Of a DNA stretch of 44,284 bases, positions 18,689 to 28,555 are shown piece after piece. This DNA comes from a virus: positions 1 to 44,284 of IMG/VR virus record IMGVR_UViG_3300017726_000012. One strand, 5' to 3'. Both the position numbers and the translations under genes were made by a program. The notes under the pieces were generated by a model that was given only the letters and a program-made list of their open reading frames with translations, was not told where the DNA came from and did no database searches. Numbering within the stretch: position 1 is the first letter of the stretch; each line of letters begins with the position of its first letter.

Positions 18689-19903
18689 ATGAAACCGATA
18701 CTTACATACTACATGGGTTTTCACGACTCGTCTATAACCATATATGAACCTGACACTGATAAGATGTTTGTGTATGAGTTTGACCGCATCATAGGAGTGA
18801 AACACTCATTATTCATAAAATCTAACATGATAACTTCAGACTTTGTTTTTTGTCAAGATAGTGTATTAGACCTCTATGGTTCTAAAGAATTTAGTAATGT
18901 TTATATAAAGTTTAATAGTGCCAATCTATTTTCAGATACACCTCATGTTGTCGAGAGAACTAGTGCATTGGGTGATTTTACTGGCAAAGTCTTCGTTGAA
19001 GATAAAATAATAACAACCTATGGCGCTTACGAATCTAGTGATTCCATTCATCATCATGACGCACATGCTTGGTGTGGATATGGTCAGTCTGGATTCGATA
19101 ATGCTTTTGTGATATCATTCGATAATGGTGGAGACGATACACATTTTCGCACAGCAACATTTAGAAATAAGAAACAGATAACTGGAACTAATTATGGATA
19201 TCATATATCAGGGTTCTATCAATCAAACTCATATCCACTAAACGAAGTTTATGCTAACACATCTCATGGATATTCTTTAGGTGTGGTTGGTAAGGTGATG
19301 GCAATGGCGGCATATGCTAGTCCAAAACCAAGAGATGTTCAATCCCTTGTTGACAGAAATAGAGACTTTCATAAACATCGTGAAAATCTTATAACGTGTG
19401 ATGGTTATCGGGCCATGGCACAAGAGGTGTTTGGTATAGACGACCAGAGATTTGGAGCATATACTGCATCACACTTTCTTGAAAAGTTTCCTGAAAACAG
19501 AGGAAGAGTATCAATCAATGGGGCATCTCAATATATGATTGCCGCTACACTTCAATCCTTTTTTGAAGAAACACTTATTGATATTATTAAAGAACACTTC
19601 ATAGACGACATCAAACTCCATGACAATAATCTCATTCTCACTGGTGGTTCTGCAATGAACGTCCTAGCAAATGAGAAAGTAAGACAAACATTTCCAGATA
19701 TAAATGTGTATGTTCCACCGAATCCTGAAGATGGTGGATTGTCTGTAGGTATGATGTTCCGAGAAATGAGTAGACTAAATCTTCTCAAGAAAACAGATTA
19801 TGACCTTAGATTTGCAGGCCCTGCATTCTCGATGAATGACAGAGACCTACACAATCGTCCTAAGTTCTTTGATACTGAAGTTACTATCGAAGAGATTGGA
19901 TAG
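18689..19903 (+). CDS. NodU/CmcH-family carbamoyltransferase, N-terminal part up to in-frame amber
   Basis: This 404-aa part is the Kae1-like N-terminal domain of O-carbamoyltransferases. HHDAHAWCGYGQSGF carries the metal-binding His residues. AFVISFDNGGDDTHF is the nucleotide-binding strand, and ILTGGSAMNVLANEKV with PPNPEDGGLSVG completes the fold. Such enzymes transfer carbamoyl from carbamoyl phosphate, via carbamoyl-AMP, to a hydroxyl. A TAG codon at 19901-19903 stops it in the linker before the C-terminal domain, which continues in the same frame. The missing C-terminal domain carries conserved active-site residues, so this part alone should be inactive. Confidence 0.8.
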   Translation: MKPILTYYMGFHDSSITIYEPDTDKMFVYEFDRIIGVKHSLFIKSNMITSDFVFCQDSVLDLYGSKEFSNVYIKFNSANLFSDTPHVVERTSALGDFTGKVFVEDKIITTYGAYESSDSIHHHDAHAWCGYGQSGFDNAFVISFDNGGDDTHFRTATFRNKKQITGTNYGYHISGFYQSNSYPLNEVYANTSHGYSLGVVGKVMAMAAYASPKPRDVQSLVDRNRDFHKHRENLITCDGYRAMAQEVFGIDDQRFGAYTASHFLEKFPENRGRVSINGASQYMIAATLQSFFEETLIDIIKEHFIDDIKLHDNNLILTGGSAMNVLANEKVRQTFPDINVYVPPNPEDGGLSVGMMFREMSRLNLLKKTDYDLRFAGPAFSMNDRDLHNRPKFFDTEVTIEEIG

Positions 19904-19930: not shown

Positions 19931-20458
19931 TTGATTCAAGGTGATGTTGAGGTCGGGCCTAGAGCTCTTGGACACAGGTCAATCATATGTGACGCATCTA
20001 TTAGAACCGCAAAAGAAAAACTAAATTCTACTGTAAAATTCAGAGAGTGGTTCAGACCATATGCGGCTGCCTGTCGCAAAGAAGATTGCAACAAGTATTT
20101 TGAGTCCTCTAGTCTTGATAACATGGAACACATGTCATATGTCGCAAAGGTAAAACCAAGATATCAAAACAAACTAAACGCCGTCACTCACATAGACAAC
20201 ACGACTCGTCTACACGTTGTAGACCAAGATACCAATCCATTATTCTACGATATACTCACTGCGTTTGATGGAGTTCTTCTCAATACGTCATTTAATCGTA
20301 GAGGTGAACCCATTATAAATAATCTAGTAGGTGCATTAAAAGTGCTAGCGAGAACACCTCTTGATGCACTAGTGTTACACCATGAAGACAGATATTACTG
20401 GATTGAAAAAAATGATACACGAGTGGTCATATCAGGGGAAGACGTTTCTTCCGACTGA
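19931..20458 (+). CDS. Carbamoyltransferase C-terminal domain fragment downstream of amber codon
   Basis: The frame is the same as that of the upstream part. After TAG the codons read RLRDGKVIGLIQGDVEVGP and then RALGHRS, the hallmark GPRALGHRS motif of the family's C-terminal domain, and continue intact to LNTSFNRRGEPI and YYWIEKND. The only separate start would be TTG at 19931 with a poor ribosome site. The domain shows no other damage, so the break is one codon. It overlaps the GIY-YIG-like gene at its 3' end. Confidence 0.7.
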   Translation: MIQGDVEVGPRALGHRSIICDASIRTAKEKLNSTVKFREWFRPYAAACRKEDCNKYFESSSLDNMEHMSYVAKVKPRYQNKLNAVTHIDNTTRLHVVDQDTNPLFYDILTAFDGVLLNTSFNRRGEPIINNLVGALKVLARTPLDALVLHHEDRYYWIEKNDTRVVISGEDVSSD

Positions 20459-20825
20459 TGAGTTATTAGAGAGTTATCAAGGGTTTGTCTATTGTTTGAT
20501 GAATCTGAAAAATGGTAAAAAATATATTGGTAAAAAATTCTTTTGGTCAAGTCGTAAACTTCCACCACTTAAAGGTAAAAAAAGAAAAAGAGTTTCACGA
20601 GTAGAATCTAACTGGAGAGACTACTGTGGTTCAAGTGAAACTGTTCAGACTCTTATTGAAGAGGGTGCATCATTTGAACGTGAGATACTTCGTCTTTGTC
20701 AAACCAAAGGTGAGTGTTCTTACTACGAGGCCAAACTCCAGTTCGAACACGATGTTCTTTTGAATGATATGTATTATAATGAATTTATAGGATGTAAGAT
20801 TCATGCAAAACACATTAAATCGTAG
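20412..20825 (+). CDS. GIY-YIG-like endonuclease of T4-like phages
   Basis: The start MIHEWSYQGK is preferred over one ten codons upstream because related phage proteins begin this way. GFVYCLMNLKNG and KKYIGKKFFW correspond to the two strands of the GIY-YIG core (FVY and YIG at residues 25-27 and 38-40). RKLPPLKGKKRKR and CQTKGECSYYEAKLQFE follow, the latter with a candidate catalytic Glu. Such proteins are common free-standing nucleases in T4-like marine phages. It overlaps both neighbours. Confidence 0.7.
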   Translation: MIHEWSYQGKTFLPTDELLESYQGFVYCLMNLKNGKKYIGKKFFWSSRKLPPLKGKKRKRVSRVESNWRDYCGSSETVQTLIEEGASFEREILRLCQTKGECSYYEAKLQFEHDVLLNDMYYNEFIGCKIHAKHIKS

Positions 20826-22140
20826 TATCATAGTTGATGATATTATTTTTGACAACGAAAGTAAATCTGAAATATGTGTAAAAATTGATAAGGTCAAGGC
20901 ACTTCTCACAGACCGAGGTGCAAAAAAAGGTGACCTCATTACAATATCAATTTTACCTGTTTCAACTTATCATGTCGCATCTATCTTCGCATGTGCAGAA
21001 CTTGGTCTTAAAATAATTATTCTAGATAGTCCTGCTACTGAATTGTCCCTTCCATATACGAAACTTGCACTACACGGCCCATCTGATTATTTTATCTACG
21101 ACTCCTCATTAGACATGTCAGGGATATATGATGGTCTACACGATAAGATGATAAGACTATATGGTGGCAAATCAATTGATGTAAGAAAGACACCTCAACT
21201 AGATAAGAATGGTCACTGGCCTGAACAGACTTACAATGTCTCGATAGAACCGACTGACCCATTTCTTTTATCTTCTACTAGTGGTTCAACAAAACCCTCT
21301 CGACCAATCTTGTTTTCACACAAAGAGGTATATGAAATATCGAAACGCAATGTAGATGTATTTGAGTTCAAGTCCGATTCAAAGGTCATTCATTCTAGAA
21401 ACTTACATCACGCATCTGCTTTACTTACATCACTCTTACCTGCCTTGATGAAAGCGCATGTCCACGGGTCATTTGCAATAGGTCATGACCTCAGTCAAGA
21501 AGAAAATGAAGATATGATGCAGGGACTTCATGACCTACTTCAGTATCCACCCTCACACATTATGATACCAAACAAGGCAGAACTGATGAACTTTCTTGAA
21601 TCATTCTCAGGGCCATTCAAACGAACTGTCAATATCAATATGTGTGGATTTGCACTCGACCAATCTTTTGCCGACCTTACACGAGAATATAATGTAAAGT
21701 TTCATTCTCATTATGGTTCAATCGATACGGCCATTCCTTTACTTGTAAACTTTGTTGATGAGAATAGTGTGGTCAAAGAGAATGGTCTTGGAGTCTTACC
21801 AGATGACTTCTATGAATTTGATGGTAAAGAGATTATGTGTGAATTGTGGGACAAACCAAGATATATCGAAGATGATTTATATATGATTGATGACCAGTTC
21901 TTTATCGAACCTCGAAAGTTAAATCTACCAGACGACATTGACCTAACACCATTTATGCAGGACACCAAAATCAATATGGAACAACTTCGAGGACATGAAA
22001 CAGAGTTGTTGTGTCAACAGATAGAAAAAGACTTGCACCAAAGAGTCGCAATATTACAATTGGTCTCAAACCATGCAAGTCGATTTATTCTATCTAAAGA
22101 TTATTCTCCGACAAAATATCCAATACATTCTGAGGACTAG
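20803..22140 (+). CDS. ANL-superfamily adenylate-forming enzyme (short)
   Basis: The 445-aa protein has LLSSTSGSTKPSRPILFSHK, the serine/threonine/glycine-rich A3 loop of AMP-forming ligases. LHHASALLTSLLPALM fits the A4 region, and SHYGSIDTAIPLL the A5 region. The C-terminal lid is shortened, and the canonical A10 lysine motif was not found. It may activate a small carboxylate, but the substrate is unknown. FACAELGLKI matches FACAELGIQT of the second ANL enzyme (27137-28555), so they look like diverged paralogues. AGGA precedes the ATG, inside the end of the previous gene. Confidence 0.65.
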   Translation: MQNTLNRSIIVDDIIFDNESKSEICVKIDKVKALLTDRGAKKGDLITISILPVSTYHVASIFACAELGLKIIILDSPATELSLPYTKLALHGPSDYFIYDSSLDMSGIYDGLHDKMIRLYGGKSIDVRKTPQLDKNGHWPEQTYNVSIEPTDPFLLSSTSGSTKPSRPILFSHKEVYEISKRNVDVFEFKSDSKVIHSRNLHHASALLTSLLPALMKAHVHGSFAIGHDLSQEENEDMMQGLHDLLQYPPSHIMIPNKAELMNFLESFSGPFKRTVNINMCGFALDQSFADLTREYNVKFHSHYGSIDTAIPLLVNFVDENSVVKENGLGVLPDDFYEFDGKEIMCELWDKPRYIEDDLYMIDDQFFIEPRKLNLPDDIDLTPFMQDTKINMEQLRGHETELLCQQIEKDLHQRVAILQLVSNHASRFILSKDYSPTKYPIHSED

Positions 22141-24969: not shown

Positions 24970-25407
24970 TTAATTGCCTAAAGATACTCCAGCGGCAAGA
25001 GTTTGTAACTTCTTCTTACTACCACCAAATACTTTAGTCGCCGCAACTTGTGTCAAATTTGATGTATCATTACCAACAACAACAAGTGCAATCATACCCA
25101 TACTTTTATGGGGTGTGCATTGATACAAATATACGCCAGGCACATCGAATGTCAATGAGACTTCTTTATTGAACTTAGAACGTTTGGGTAATTCATAACC
25201 TTCTGGCCCTGCAATAAACTCAACATTATGGCCTTTGGCGGTAGGCAACCATTTGATTGTGTCGCCTGCATTAATGTATGTGACATCTTCTGAATATACC
25301 ATACGAGCGCCATCGTCTCGTTTATTCAACATTTCAATAATTGTTTCTTCTGCATATGCTGGCGTAGTGAATGCTAACGCCACAAATAATGTAATAAATC
25401 TAATCAT
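24970..25407 (-). CDS. Pseudoazurin-like blue copper protein with signal peptide
   Basis: The 145-aa protein has a signal peptide (residues 1-19, cleavage after AYA) and then the cupredoxin fold of pseudoazurin: IIEMLNKRDDGARMVY, INAGDTIKWLP and KGHNVEFI. The copper ligands are all visible: His 60, and Cys 97, His 100 and Met 105 in YQCTPHKSMGM, with pseudoazurin spacing. It would carry single electrons in the periplasm, for example to a reductase or an oxidase. It lies directly after the tmRNA on the same strand, with an AGGAG ribosome site, and may be co-transcribed from the late promoter at 25674. Confidence 0.9.
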   Translation of the reverse strand: MIRFITLFVALAFTTPAYAEETIIEMLNKRDDGARMVYSEDVTYINAGDTIKWLPTAKGHNVEFIAGPEGYELPKRSKFNKEVSLTFDVPGVYLYQCTPHKSMGMIALVVVGNDTSNLTQVAATKVFGGSKKKLQTLAAGVSLGN

Positions 25408-25429
25408 AGTATCTCCTAATAAAAAGTGA

Positions 25430-25668
25430 GGACTTCTGTTGCTAGGCGTCCCCTGACCCCGAAAACTATGCGGCTAGCGCATACTCTTCATGTGCGTAAT
25501 TATCGTTTGCACTTACGAGTTTGTTACGATTAAGGTCGCTTCCACACCTATTCTCCACATTCCTAATCAATACCTGTCGAACCTATTTCGCCCCCTCAGA
25601 GGGGGTTTGGTGGAGGCGGTGGGTATTGCACCCACGTCCAGTATACCTTTTGGTTTGCTTCAACGAAT
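25430..25668 (-). ncRNA. ssrA: Circularly permuted two-piece tmRNA
   Basis: Read on the minus strand, the acceptor piece comes first. It has the T-arm GTGGG-TGCAATA-CCCAC (25619-25635), then the acceptor strand CGCCTCC (25612-25618), A and the encoded CCA (25608). A 12-nt intervening segment (25596-25607) follows. The coding piece starts at 25595 with GGGGGCG, which pairs with CGCCTCC (7 bp, one G-U), then AATAGGTTCGACAGG, the tmRNA D-arm signature. The tag frame at 25466-25510 starts with resume GCA and encodes ANDNYAHEEYALAA then TAG. The outer ends are estimates. It would rescue stalled ribosomes and tag proteins for proteolysis. Confidence 0.93.
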
Positions 25669-25673
25669 ACTTT

Positions 25674-25681
25674 TATTTATA
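25674..25681 (-). promoter_or_regulatory. T4-type late promoter in front of tmRNA
   Basis: Minus strand TATAAATA overlaps the TAA stop of the upstream gene. The predicted start near 25668 is just before the tmRNA acceptor piece, so the tmRNA precursor is probably a late transcript. Confidence 0.7.
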
Positions 25682-25883
25682 CACCAAGGATATTGCCAGC
25701 CTTGTTAGCATCAAGACTACCACCACTTCGCATGTGTGTCTCCACTTGCTCGAAGTAGAATGCCGCATCCTCATGACCATATTCTTCAAGAACTTCTTTA
25801 CATGCCTTGAAGAACAACGTAGTCTTCATCTGTTGCATGTTTTCAGCACCAGATGCTTTATGTGATTTACCCACCCGTTGCAT
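25677..25883 (-). CDS. Small phage protein, 68 aa
   Basis: The frame begins MQRVGKSHKASGAENMQQM. Its C-terminal part has FFKACKEVLEEYGHEDAAFY and THMRSGGSLDANKAG, a compact helical protein. No motif was recognised. The ATG overlaps the end of the membrane protein gene upstream by 17 nt; an internal start at MQQM is an alternative. The stop codon is inside the tmRNA late promoter. Confidence 0.55.
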   Translation of the reverse strand: MQRVGKSHKASGAENMQQMKTTLFFKACKEVLEEYGHEDAAFYFEQVETHMRSGGSLDANKAGNILGV

Positions 25884-26112: not shown

Positions 26113-26186
26113 TGGAGCGGATGGAAAGAATCGAACTTTCATCAATGGATTGGAAATCCAGTGCATTACCATTATGCTACATCCGC
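26113..26186 (-). tRNA. tRNA-Gly, anticodon UCC
   Basis: The minus strand folds as a full cloverleaf. The acceptor is GCGGATG/CATCCGC with discriminator T and an encoded CCA, and the D-stem is GCAT/ATGC. The anticodon loop is TTTCCAA with anticodon TCC, and the T-arm is GAAAG-TTCGATT-CTTTC. The first anticodon-stem pair (C-T) is mismatched. It reads GGA glycine codons. It sits just downstream of a sigma70 promoter, so it is likely early. Confidence 0.92.
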
Positions 26187-26272: not shown

Positions 26273-26301
26273 ATAGTATCATACTATACAGTAGATGTCA
26301 A
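26273..26301 (-). promoter_or_regulatory. Sigma70-type promoter of the tRNA transcript
   Basis: Minus strand TTGACA (26296-26301), 17-bp spacer ending TGA, TACTAT (26273-26278). The box overlaps the last codons of the upstream gene. The expected start site near 26266 is at the edge of the 72-nt structured element. Confidence 0.78.
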
Positions 26302-27130: not shown

Positions 27131-27159
27131 ATTATATCATAGATATCGTGTATTGTCAA
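27131..27159 (-). promoter_or_regulatory. Consensus sigma70 promoter
   Basis: Minus strand TTGACA (27154-27159), 17-bp spacer, TATAAT (27131-27136). The TGA of the extended -10 is also the stop codon of the second ANL gene. It drives the WYL_2-like, DUF3310-like and basic protein genes. Confidence 0.85.
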
Positions 27160-28555
27160 TGATTTTATCAAGATTATCTGTTCCCTTGATACGACTTTCT
27201 TCAAACATCTCAAAAGACTTATTATCAAAACCAGAACGATACAAGTGTTCTTTGAGAGCCCACCACTGTCTTGTCTCATCAGATGTATAGGCATTAGGAT
27301 TTATAGTGTGTATACTTGTGAAATCAAAATCAAAGACACCATCAGGTAAATCATCAATCCCATATCGTGTTCCCCAATTGTCATCTAGTATAATCAGATA
27401 CTTTCGTCCATACTTGGTTACAATTTCAAAGTCGTCATGACCTAATATATCTCTGAGATACTCTGTGTCGGAATGTTCTGACTGTCTTCCAATGATATGA
27501 TACTCACCATCTTGTTCCTCAAACTTCTCGTCAAGCATATGCCATGATTTGCAATCTCGACTCTTGACCAGAGTTGTTCCATCATCCATAATCTGAACCT
27601 TGTAGTAATCATCAACGAGACGACCATTAATAAACAACGCATGAGGGCCATCAGTCTCACCAAAGATTGTTGTTACAGGAACTTCCCGTAATTTTTGTTT
27701 TCCTCGATGAAGTAAAAACTTAGTATTAGAACAAGTAAAATCCTGAAGTTTATCTAAAACCAAATCACTCTGTGCAAGAACAACTTTTCTCTCTTCCCTT
27801 GCCAAATCCTTCTCCAGACACTTGACCATATCTTCAGGCCAGTAGTCGGTATTGTTTGGTAGATTATAGAACAGATGTTCATCACAAGTCATGATTGCAG
27901 GTAAGAAGTATGTCGTCAATGCACGAGCATGATGAATATTGTTAGTGTGAAGTGCAAGTGTATCTCTGATACCAAGTGCATCTGCGTTTCTGTATCCAAG
28001 ACCCATTGCCTGTCTGTGAGTCAAGTATGAAAACTTGTAATCATCTCCCGAATAACCAGAGGTGTGTGTGACATGTAATATATCGTCTAGATGAACAAAG
28101 GGTGAGTATAAACACTCTTTATCATAGTTTGCAATGTCAATCTCTTCTTGAAAGAATATCTTACCTCTGTTTCTTTCCATCATCTTCTCAGTGAAATCAA
28201 AAATCTCACTATTACCATAGAAGGTCTTTGCCATGATATTCGTAAAGATTGCATCAAACTTAACTTTCGCAAGTGTAGTGCAATCAAGGAGTGGATTATT
28301 GTAAGGATAGTTTCCACACCATGTTTGAATACCAAGTTCCGCACATGCAAAGAACAAGGCATAATGGTCAGTATCTCCAAAGATAAATGAATTGAGAACA
28401 AGGTCTCCTTTTCTTAGTCTACCTTCGTTTACAAGAAAAGACTTCCACTTGTCAATGCGTTCACAGAACTCTCTTCGATTCATATCAGGAACGTGGTCAA
28501 ACTGATTAGTTCGACAAATAAAATTTGGTCTTAGTATCTCTCTGTTTAGTATCAT
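27137..28555 (-). CDS. ANL-superfamily adenylate-forming enzyme (second copy)
   Basis: The 472-aa protein has ILHVTHTSGYSGDDYKF in the A3 loop position, IHHARALTTYFLPAIM (A4 region), TTIFGETDGPHALF (A5 region) and DGEYHIIGRQSE (A7/A8 region). This order matches acyl- or aminoacyl-activating ANL enzymes, although the lysine of the canonical SGTTGKPK loop is displaced. The substrate is unknown. It shares FACAELG and the HHA-rich region with the gene at 20803-22140. Its ATG overlaps the stop of the lysin gene (ATGA). Confidence 0.65.
   Translation of the reverse strand: MILNREILRPNFICRTNQFDHVPDMNRREFCERIDKWKSFLVNEGRLRKGDLVLNSFIFGDTDHYALFFACAELGIQTWCGNYPYNNPLLDCTTLAKVKFDAIFTNIMAKTFYGNSEIFDFTEKMMERNRGKIFFQEEIDIANYDKECLYSPFVHLDDILHVTHTSGYSGDDYKFSYLTHRQAMGLGYRNADALGIRDTLALHTNNIHHARALTTYFLPAIMTCDEHLFYNLPNNTDYWPEDMVKCLEKDLAREERKVVLAQSDLVLDKLQDFTCSNTKFLLHRGKQKLREVPVTTIFGETDGPHALFINGRLVDDYYKVQIMDDGTTLVKSRDCKSWHMLDEKFEEQDGEYHIIGRQSEHSDTEYLRDILGHDDFEIVTKYGRKYLIILDDNWGTRYGIDDLPDGVFDFDFTSIHTINPNAYTSDETRQWWALKEHLYRSGFDNKSFEMFEESRIKGTDNLDKIIDNTRYL

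Follow-up and report, generated by a model that had tools for sequence, protein, structure and literature searches.

Circularly permuted two-piece tmRNA in a marine T4-like phage: member of a proposed viral lineage, probably transcribed from a late promoter box

Phage two-piece tmRNA is already known as a kind, and is in that respect less novel than a first-pass annotation of the DNA studied here had claimed. Such an RNA was reported in 2022 in phage Melnitz, in a paper whose parts drawn on here also name Mosig among the tmRNA-bearing phages with a riboswitch and count 133 unique phage tmRNA structures, 53 of them two-piece and 50 of these 53 marine or aquatic (PMC9004378). According to the same source, Melnitz infects OM43, classed as gammaproteobacterial, and its tmRNA was postulated to act early, on account of an early promoter. 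A second paper, likewise cited from parts of its text, describes the permuted tmRNA family RF04321, lists 79 bacteriophage tmRNAs and reports that a phage form without a tag, that of DS6A, acts as an inhibitor of host tmRNA upon expression in E. coli (PMC11915505). As given in the part of PMC2988020 used here, T4 late promoters lack a −35 element and consist of a TATA box of 8 bp whose first base is at −13, roughly a helical turn ahead of the start. A literature search covering few subscription papers or preprints returned no description of late promoters at phage tmRNAs, nor of the arrangement reported below, a late box at the tmRNA edge that is often fused with a −35 element. At stake is what a lytic phage gains from a ribosome-rescue RNA of its own.

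The window analysed, a viral DNA stretch of 44,284 nucleotides, contains T4-type genes for a DNA polymerase, the UvsX recombinase and a DnaB-like helicase, together with genes for a sliding clamp, clamp loader, thymidylate synthase and ribonucleotide reductase. The closest named relative of the large reductase subunit is found in phage C48C1 (78.7%), followed by the Melnitz phages (65.4%). No permuted tmRNA was found in phage C48C1, so that such an RNA would be dispensable.

In this T4-like phage fragment, a circularly permuted two-piece tmRNA lies at 25425-25718 on the minus strand. RF04321, RF01849 and ARAGORN agree that the acceptor piece precedes the coding piece, as annotated, and the locus is confirmed as a real two-piece tmRNA. 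The covariance-model check recommended in the first-pass annotation gave scores well above the cut-offs: 121.3 bits against 47 for permuted tmRNA (RF04321; E 2.6e-23; 25668-25466, minus strand) and 120.1 bits against 50 for alphaproteobacterial tmRNA (RF01849; E 2.5e-32; 25718-25425, minus strand), the latter bearing out the alphaproteobacterial type that had been assigned to it. ARAGORN reports a permuted tmRNA with the tag ANDNYAHEEYALAA. Single-sequence folding of the whole unit was uninformative (z −0.67; 54/200 shuffles fold equally well).

Along the minus strand, the acceptor piece (25608-25668, its start being approximate) comprises a connector strand, GGAC at 25639-25636, a T-arm, CGCCTCC at 25618-25612 and ACCA at 25611-25608, the CCA thus being encoded. 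Next come a 12-base intervening segment, AACCCCCTCTGA (25596-25607), and the coding piece, whose initial bases can pair with that segment. The coding piece runs from G1 (GGGGGCG) at 25595 to a 3' end at about 25425, as placed by the RF01849 match. The 7-bp acceptor stem GGGGGCG/CGCCTCC that joins both pieces is present as described earlier; one of its pairs, read from the sequence, is G3.U70, the alanine identity element. The 45-nt tag frame was also recovered at 25510-25466, where 15 codons including the stop encode ANDNYAHEEYALAA, with the alanine-rich end of the permuted family. The T-arm loop TGCAATA (25630-25624) carries G55, which had been singled out as an oddity. This does not hold, as G55 is normal in alphaproteobacterial tmRNA and occurs in 92/92 members of the second cellular set defined below; the RF01849 consensus loop is GGCgGUA, and that of the broader RF04321 is UUCGAUU, with U55.

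Melnitz (a Methylophilales phage) and Mosig (a Pelagibacter phage) resemble the window in being T4-like marine phages with a permuted alphaproteobacterial-type tmRNA matched by both RF04321 and RF01849. Melnitz additionally shares the octamer TATAAATA, a T4-type late box, there at −45, but differs in having TTGACA-17-TATAAATA, a 142-base intervening segment and a downstream glutamine riboswitch. Mosig, unlike the window, has no box and a 9-residue tag. The window is distinguished from both by its late box only, the 12-base segment, the lack of a riboswitch match at gathering score and a pseudoazurin gene downstream. With Caulobacter-type alphaproteobacterial tmRNA (RF01849) it shares the acceptor piece before the coding piece, G55, the GGGGGCG start, an ANDN-type tag and the conserved 3' end. 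Alphaproteobacterial two-piece tmRNAs in general differ from viral ones in an arm stretch, CTAYRRYRMTAMA, that is cellular, in a late box that is viral only and in a tree split at one branch.

Viral loci for these comparisons came from a pattern scan (at least 120 matches), from the best 80 of 315 pseudoazurin relatives, from 3 tag matches and from three isolates (BLAST). The first cellular set consists of pattern-scan loci, among the matches listed, and the second of the best-scoring 30 from each of three scans plus 4 from another, of which 92/93 were parsed (L461 was missed); the second set was not made non-redundant and some of its genomes are common to the first. Loci with fewer than 100 bases upstream were excluded. 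An identity cut of 85% left 109 viral and 74 cellular tmRNAs, or 103 and 58 over a shorter compared stretch. Locus L006, with an identical tmRNA, stands for the window throughout. The compared rows are related, so that p-values overstate independence. ARAGORN missed the tmRNA in L132-L136; cmscan found one in L132, a sister of the window.

Viral and cellular tmRNAs separate in trees. With acceptor and coding pieces combined, 98 viral and 53 cellular rows split at one branch (99/97; bootstraps not settled), and a tree of the same type without the upstream part splits 97 viral from 51 cellular rows, again at one branch (98/94; bootstraps not settled). The coding piece by itself gave no one-branch split (2 changes), the one-branch tree not being rejected (p-AU 0.48). 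For 96 viral and 116 cellular rows, the latter including representatives of the orders to which a Pelagibacteraceae and a SAR116 genome belong, a quick free tree had 3 changes and the one-branch tree was 114 log units better (p-AU 0.977). All these trees are unrooted, use short alignments and rows among the matches listed, and cover viral and alphaproteobacterial permuted forms. The conserved cellular 5' arm stretch CTAYRRYRMTAMA was present in 51/58 and 65/92 cellular tmRNAs of the two sets, as against 0/103 viral ones (among the matches listed). In the window, the 5' hairpin arm of the RF01849 acceptor piece (model positions 40-53) does not form, its pairs being broken in the alignment. Counting hairpins in the 5' arm proved too crude a viral/cellular marker and was rejected (24/103 viral against 29/58 cellular, among the matches listed). 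Overall, the sequence comparisons suggest that viruses keep a two-piece tmRNA lineage apart from that of bacteria, often with a phage late signal at its front edge. This split, if true, argues against recent capture from hosts.

The late promoter annotated ahead of the tmRNA is supported by comparison as a T4-type box. An exact TATAAATA occupies 25674-25681 on the minus strand, at −42 from GGAC, and the box start plus 13 gives 25668, the first base of the RF04321 match; with the −13 position taken from part of PMC2988020, late transcription is predicted to start near this base. As at T4 late promoters, the octamer is exact, no −35 element accompanies it (best match 2/6 to TTGACA), and genes for a sliding clamp and clamp loader are present. 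Unlike the T4 case, neither gp55 nor gp33 was recognised among the scanned proteins of the window, a 44-kb fragment, and in most viral relatives with the box a sigma-70 −35 element is present as well. Among the matches listed, 47/109 non-redundant viral permuted tmRNAs have an exact TATAAATA that begins 41-49 bases ahead of GGAC in the acceptor piece, 18 of these boxes being at −44. By comparison, the 100 bases upstream contain it in 0/74 cellular tmRNAs (among the matches listed) and in 0/92 of the best-scoring second cellular set. Permuted octamers, used as a control for box position, gave a mean count of 0.9 and a largest count of 18/109, which may come from octamers overlapping the box. 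A whole-collection control octamer, TAATATAA (49 matches), was dropped as confounded, since TAATATAAATA contains the late box. Within the window, TATAAATA occurs 8 times against 2.21 expected, and 0/100 dinucleotide shuffles reach as many. In the sister L132 the box is at −65, where the rule that the start equals the RNA edge fails. The window's box also overlaps the stop codon (25679-25677) of a small upstream ORF (25677-25883, minus strand; no Pfam or PHROG match), an overlap that may explain part of the box conservation within the window's own group.

We consider it probable that this T4-like marine phage encodes a functional, alphaproteobacterial-type permuted two-piece tmRNA of the viral lineage, transcribed from the late box for ribosome rescue late in infection. 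Phage-modified host RNA polymerase would start at TATAAATA, making 25668, approximately the first folded base, the 5' end. The precursor would then fold and lose the 12-base intervening segment to RNase P and 3' tRNA-processing enzymes; excision of the intervening segment by tRNA-processing enzymes is known for the permuted tmRNA family. Acceptor stem and connector helices would join the two pieces, alanine would be loaded via G3.U70, and host SmpB would bring the tmRNA to stalled ribosomes. Incomplete proteins would thereby receive a tag ending in ALAA for host proteases, and late in infection the phage would still have working ribosomes at its disposal. The SmpB would have to be the host's, as a search of 12 phage records, of which 8, the window among them, may be fragments, found no gene for it. 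As to the purposes put forward in the first-pass annotation, ribosome rescue late in infection may fairly be inferred, and replacement of the host tmRNA is possible.

Read differently, TATAAATA would be the −10 element of an ordinary sigma-70 early promoter and the tmRNA would work early, as proposed for Melnitz, whose promoter is called early in the cited part of PMC9004378. Elements of the −35 type are in fact frequent, with 5 or 6 matches to TTGACA in 32/43 box-bearing viral tmRNAs (among the matches listed), at a distance of 17 bp from the box in 30 cases and of 16 bp in the other 2; at shifted control positions the figure is 1/86. A second set of 44 new non-redundant loci, picked for the box alone, contained such an element in 30, at 17 bp in 29 of these, whereas it was found at 0/132 shifted positions and 12/248 other TATAAATA sites. 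Outside the tmRNA, moreover, TATAAATA is not in excess of mononucleotide expectation in viral loci (53 against 63 expected; 98 against 109). What speaks against a mere −10 element is the way these promoters end. On the contigs of the first set, TTGAC(A/T)-17-TATAA ends as TATAAATA in 29/32 cases at tmRNA genes against 2/52 elsewhere, where 46/52 read TATAAT (among the matches listed; Fisher p 7e-17, which is too small, as the rows are related). On the contigs of the second set, sites elsewhere end as TATAAATA in 2/12; the tmRNA sites there were picked for the box. The window, for its part, lacks the −35 element altogether. An ordinary early promoter is, in our judgement, unlikely.

The two signals combine in several ways. 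Among the matches listed, the 103 viral tmRNAs comprise 32 with fused elements, 10 with the late box only, 6 with both apart, 11 with a sigma-70 promoter only (some weak) and 44 with neither box nor sigma-70 promoter by the test used; the late-only class includes L006 and hence the tmRNA of the window. Melnitz has the fused form, TTGACA-17-TATAAATA at L002 3991-4021, so that its published early promoter also carries a late box. This bears on the published suggestion tying the Melnitz tmRNA to early infection through its promoter: together with phages that have the late box only, such as the window, it suggests action late in infection or all through the cycle. As a tentative generalization, for which we put the chances at just under even, marine T4-like phages would own a separate viral two-piece tmRNA lineage. 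For many members this would mean that a fused promoter (a sigma-70 −35 element with the T4 late box as −10) has taken the place of the cellular 5' arm. Host and phage-modified polymerase would both start from it at about the first folded base, giving tmRNA over the whole course of infection; some, the window among them, would have the late box only.

Compensating variation in the fold is in line with a functional RNA of this kind. Across the 42 viral tmRNAs that have the box and both pieces (among the matches listed), the T-arm and connector pairs vary while pairing is kept, six connector pairs being present in 30 to 41 of the 42 rows. G3.U70 occurs in 42/42 of them; most of these loci come from a pattern that fixes the U, with which G or A could pair. 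The region of the predicted transcript start pairs with the coding piece over at least 5 bp in 37/42 box-bearing viral RNAs (among the matches listed), with a mean pairing score of 13.9 for own pieces against a mean of 11.9 and a maximum of 12.75 for swapped coding pieces, and the onset of pairing falls at offsets −3 to 0 from the predicted start in 32/37. Since the start region pairs with the coding piece, the predicted start would coincide, within a few bases, with the edge of the folded RNA. Some best pairings in the swap test fall at other coding positions, and for L006, the tmRNA of the window, the test and the covariance model differ in the pairing chosen, the model forming no more than 4 of the first 5 connector pairs. 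In 24/37 cases the first bases of the best pairing lie 1-3 positions ahead of the predicted start and would be absent from such a transcript, which slightly lowers our confidence in the overall reading and in the generalization above. Separately, the intervening segment can form a hairpin, CCCCCU-CUG-AGGGGG (25591-25605, minus strand; −10.5 kcal/mol). It takes up the first coding bases, which the acceptor stem also needs, and might delay maturation; the segment is identical in the sister L132.

Alternatively, most of the tmRNA could be transcribed from a promoter further upstream, by read-through and along with tRNA-Gly and small ORFs, leaving the box a secondary role. A tRNA-Gly(TCC) gene is located upstream on the same strand (26113-26186, minus strand; tRNA/model search), and ahead of it is a TTGACA-17-TACTAT site preceded by TG (26273-26301, minus strand), which could serve as such a promoter. 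The tmRNAs of Mosig and HTVC008M, which have no box, would fit this scheme. Sites of this type are at chance level in the stretch, however (5 found, 4.8 expected), and the box position is common to viral tmRNAs in surroundings as different as those of the window and Melnitz. We regard read-through as the main source as quite unlikely and retain the late box as the probable promoter.

Selection acts on the tag frame. Across 46 pairs of viral tags, 113/187 differences fall at third codon positions (p 3e-14, which overstates independence, the rows being related), and 86 of the changed codons are synonymous and 64 are not; ARAGORN favours typical tags, which may bias this test. The tag of the window differs from that of the sister L415 at 7 positions, 7/7 of them third positions, with one E to D change. 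Tags of 14 residues were found in 24/64 viral and 0/46 cellular tmRNAs (among the matches listed). At 22 residues, the viral tags of loci L060 and L096 (ANKRALGFADLTVGMSKLRLAA and a variant of it) are unusually long. In the sister L132 (4600-4982), the tmRNA has extra coding-piece bases before the tag compared with the window. The earlier idea that the tag could name the host is doubtful: the tag pattern search returned 3 viral contigs, all with an identical tmRNA (L006-L008), and 0 genome contigs, so that no host is named, and Melnitz has an alphaproteobacterial-type tmRNA yet infects OM43.

An intact tag frame under selection also weighs against the phage tmRNA being an inhibitor or decoy that sequesters host SmpB instead of tagging, an idea for which the inhibition of host tmRNA in E. 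coli by the tag-less DS6A form offers a precedent (PMC11915505, as cited in part) and which we hold to be highly improbable.

It is very improbable that the late box serves the downstream pseudoazurin gene, with the tmRNA a passenger or relic, even though that gene starts only 17 bases past the predicted tmRNA end: among the best 80 of 315 relatives, the box is found at 12/13 viral pseudoazurin loci with an acceptor piece no more than 400 bases upstream and at 0/67 without one, so that it belongs to the tmRNA and not to the downstream gene, box-bearing tmRNAs also occur with other downstream genes (Melnitz), and the tag is intact and selected.

The pseudoazurin gene itself, encoding a copper protein of plastocyanin fold (24970-25407, minus strand; PF00127, E 5.9e-15), is directly downstream of the tmRNA, perhaps on the same transcript. 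A scan found 315 viral relatives of this gene, and no paper on a phage pseudoazurin gene was found among the titles and opening lines of abstracts returned by the literature search. Elsewhere in the window, the ORFs at 27137-28555 (minus strand; no PHROG match) and 20803-22140 (plus strand) may encode AMP-binding ligase-type proteins, which they resemble by eye. The ORF at 18689-19903 on the plus strand matches a Nol-like carbamoyltransferase, and the next ORF, at 19931-20458, resembles its continuation by eye.
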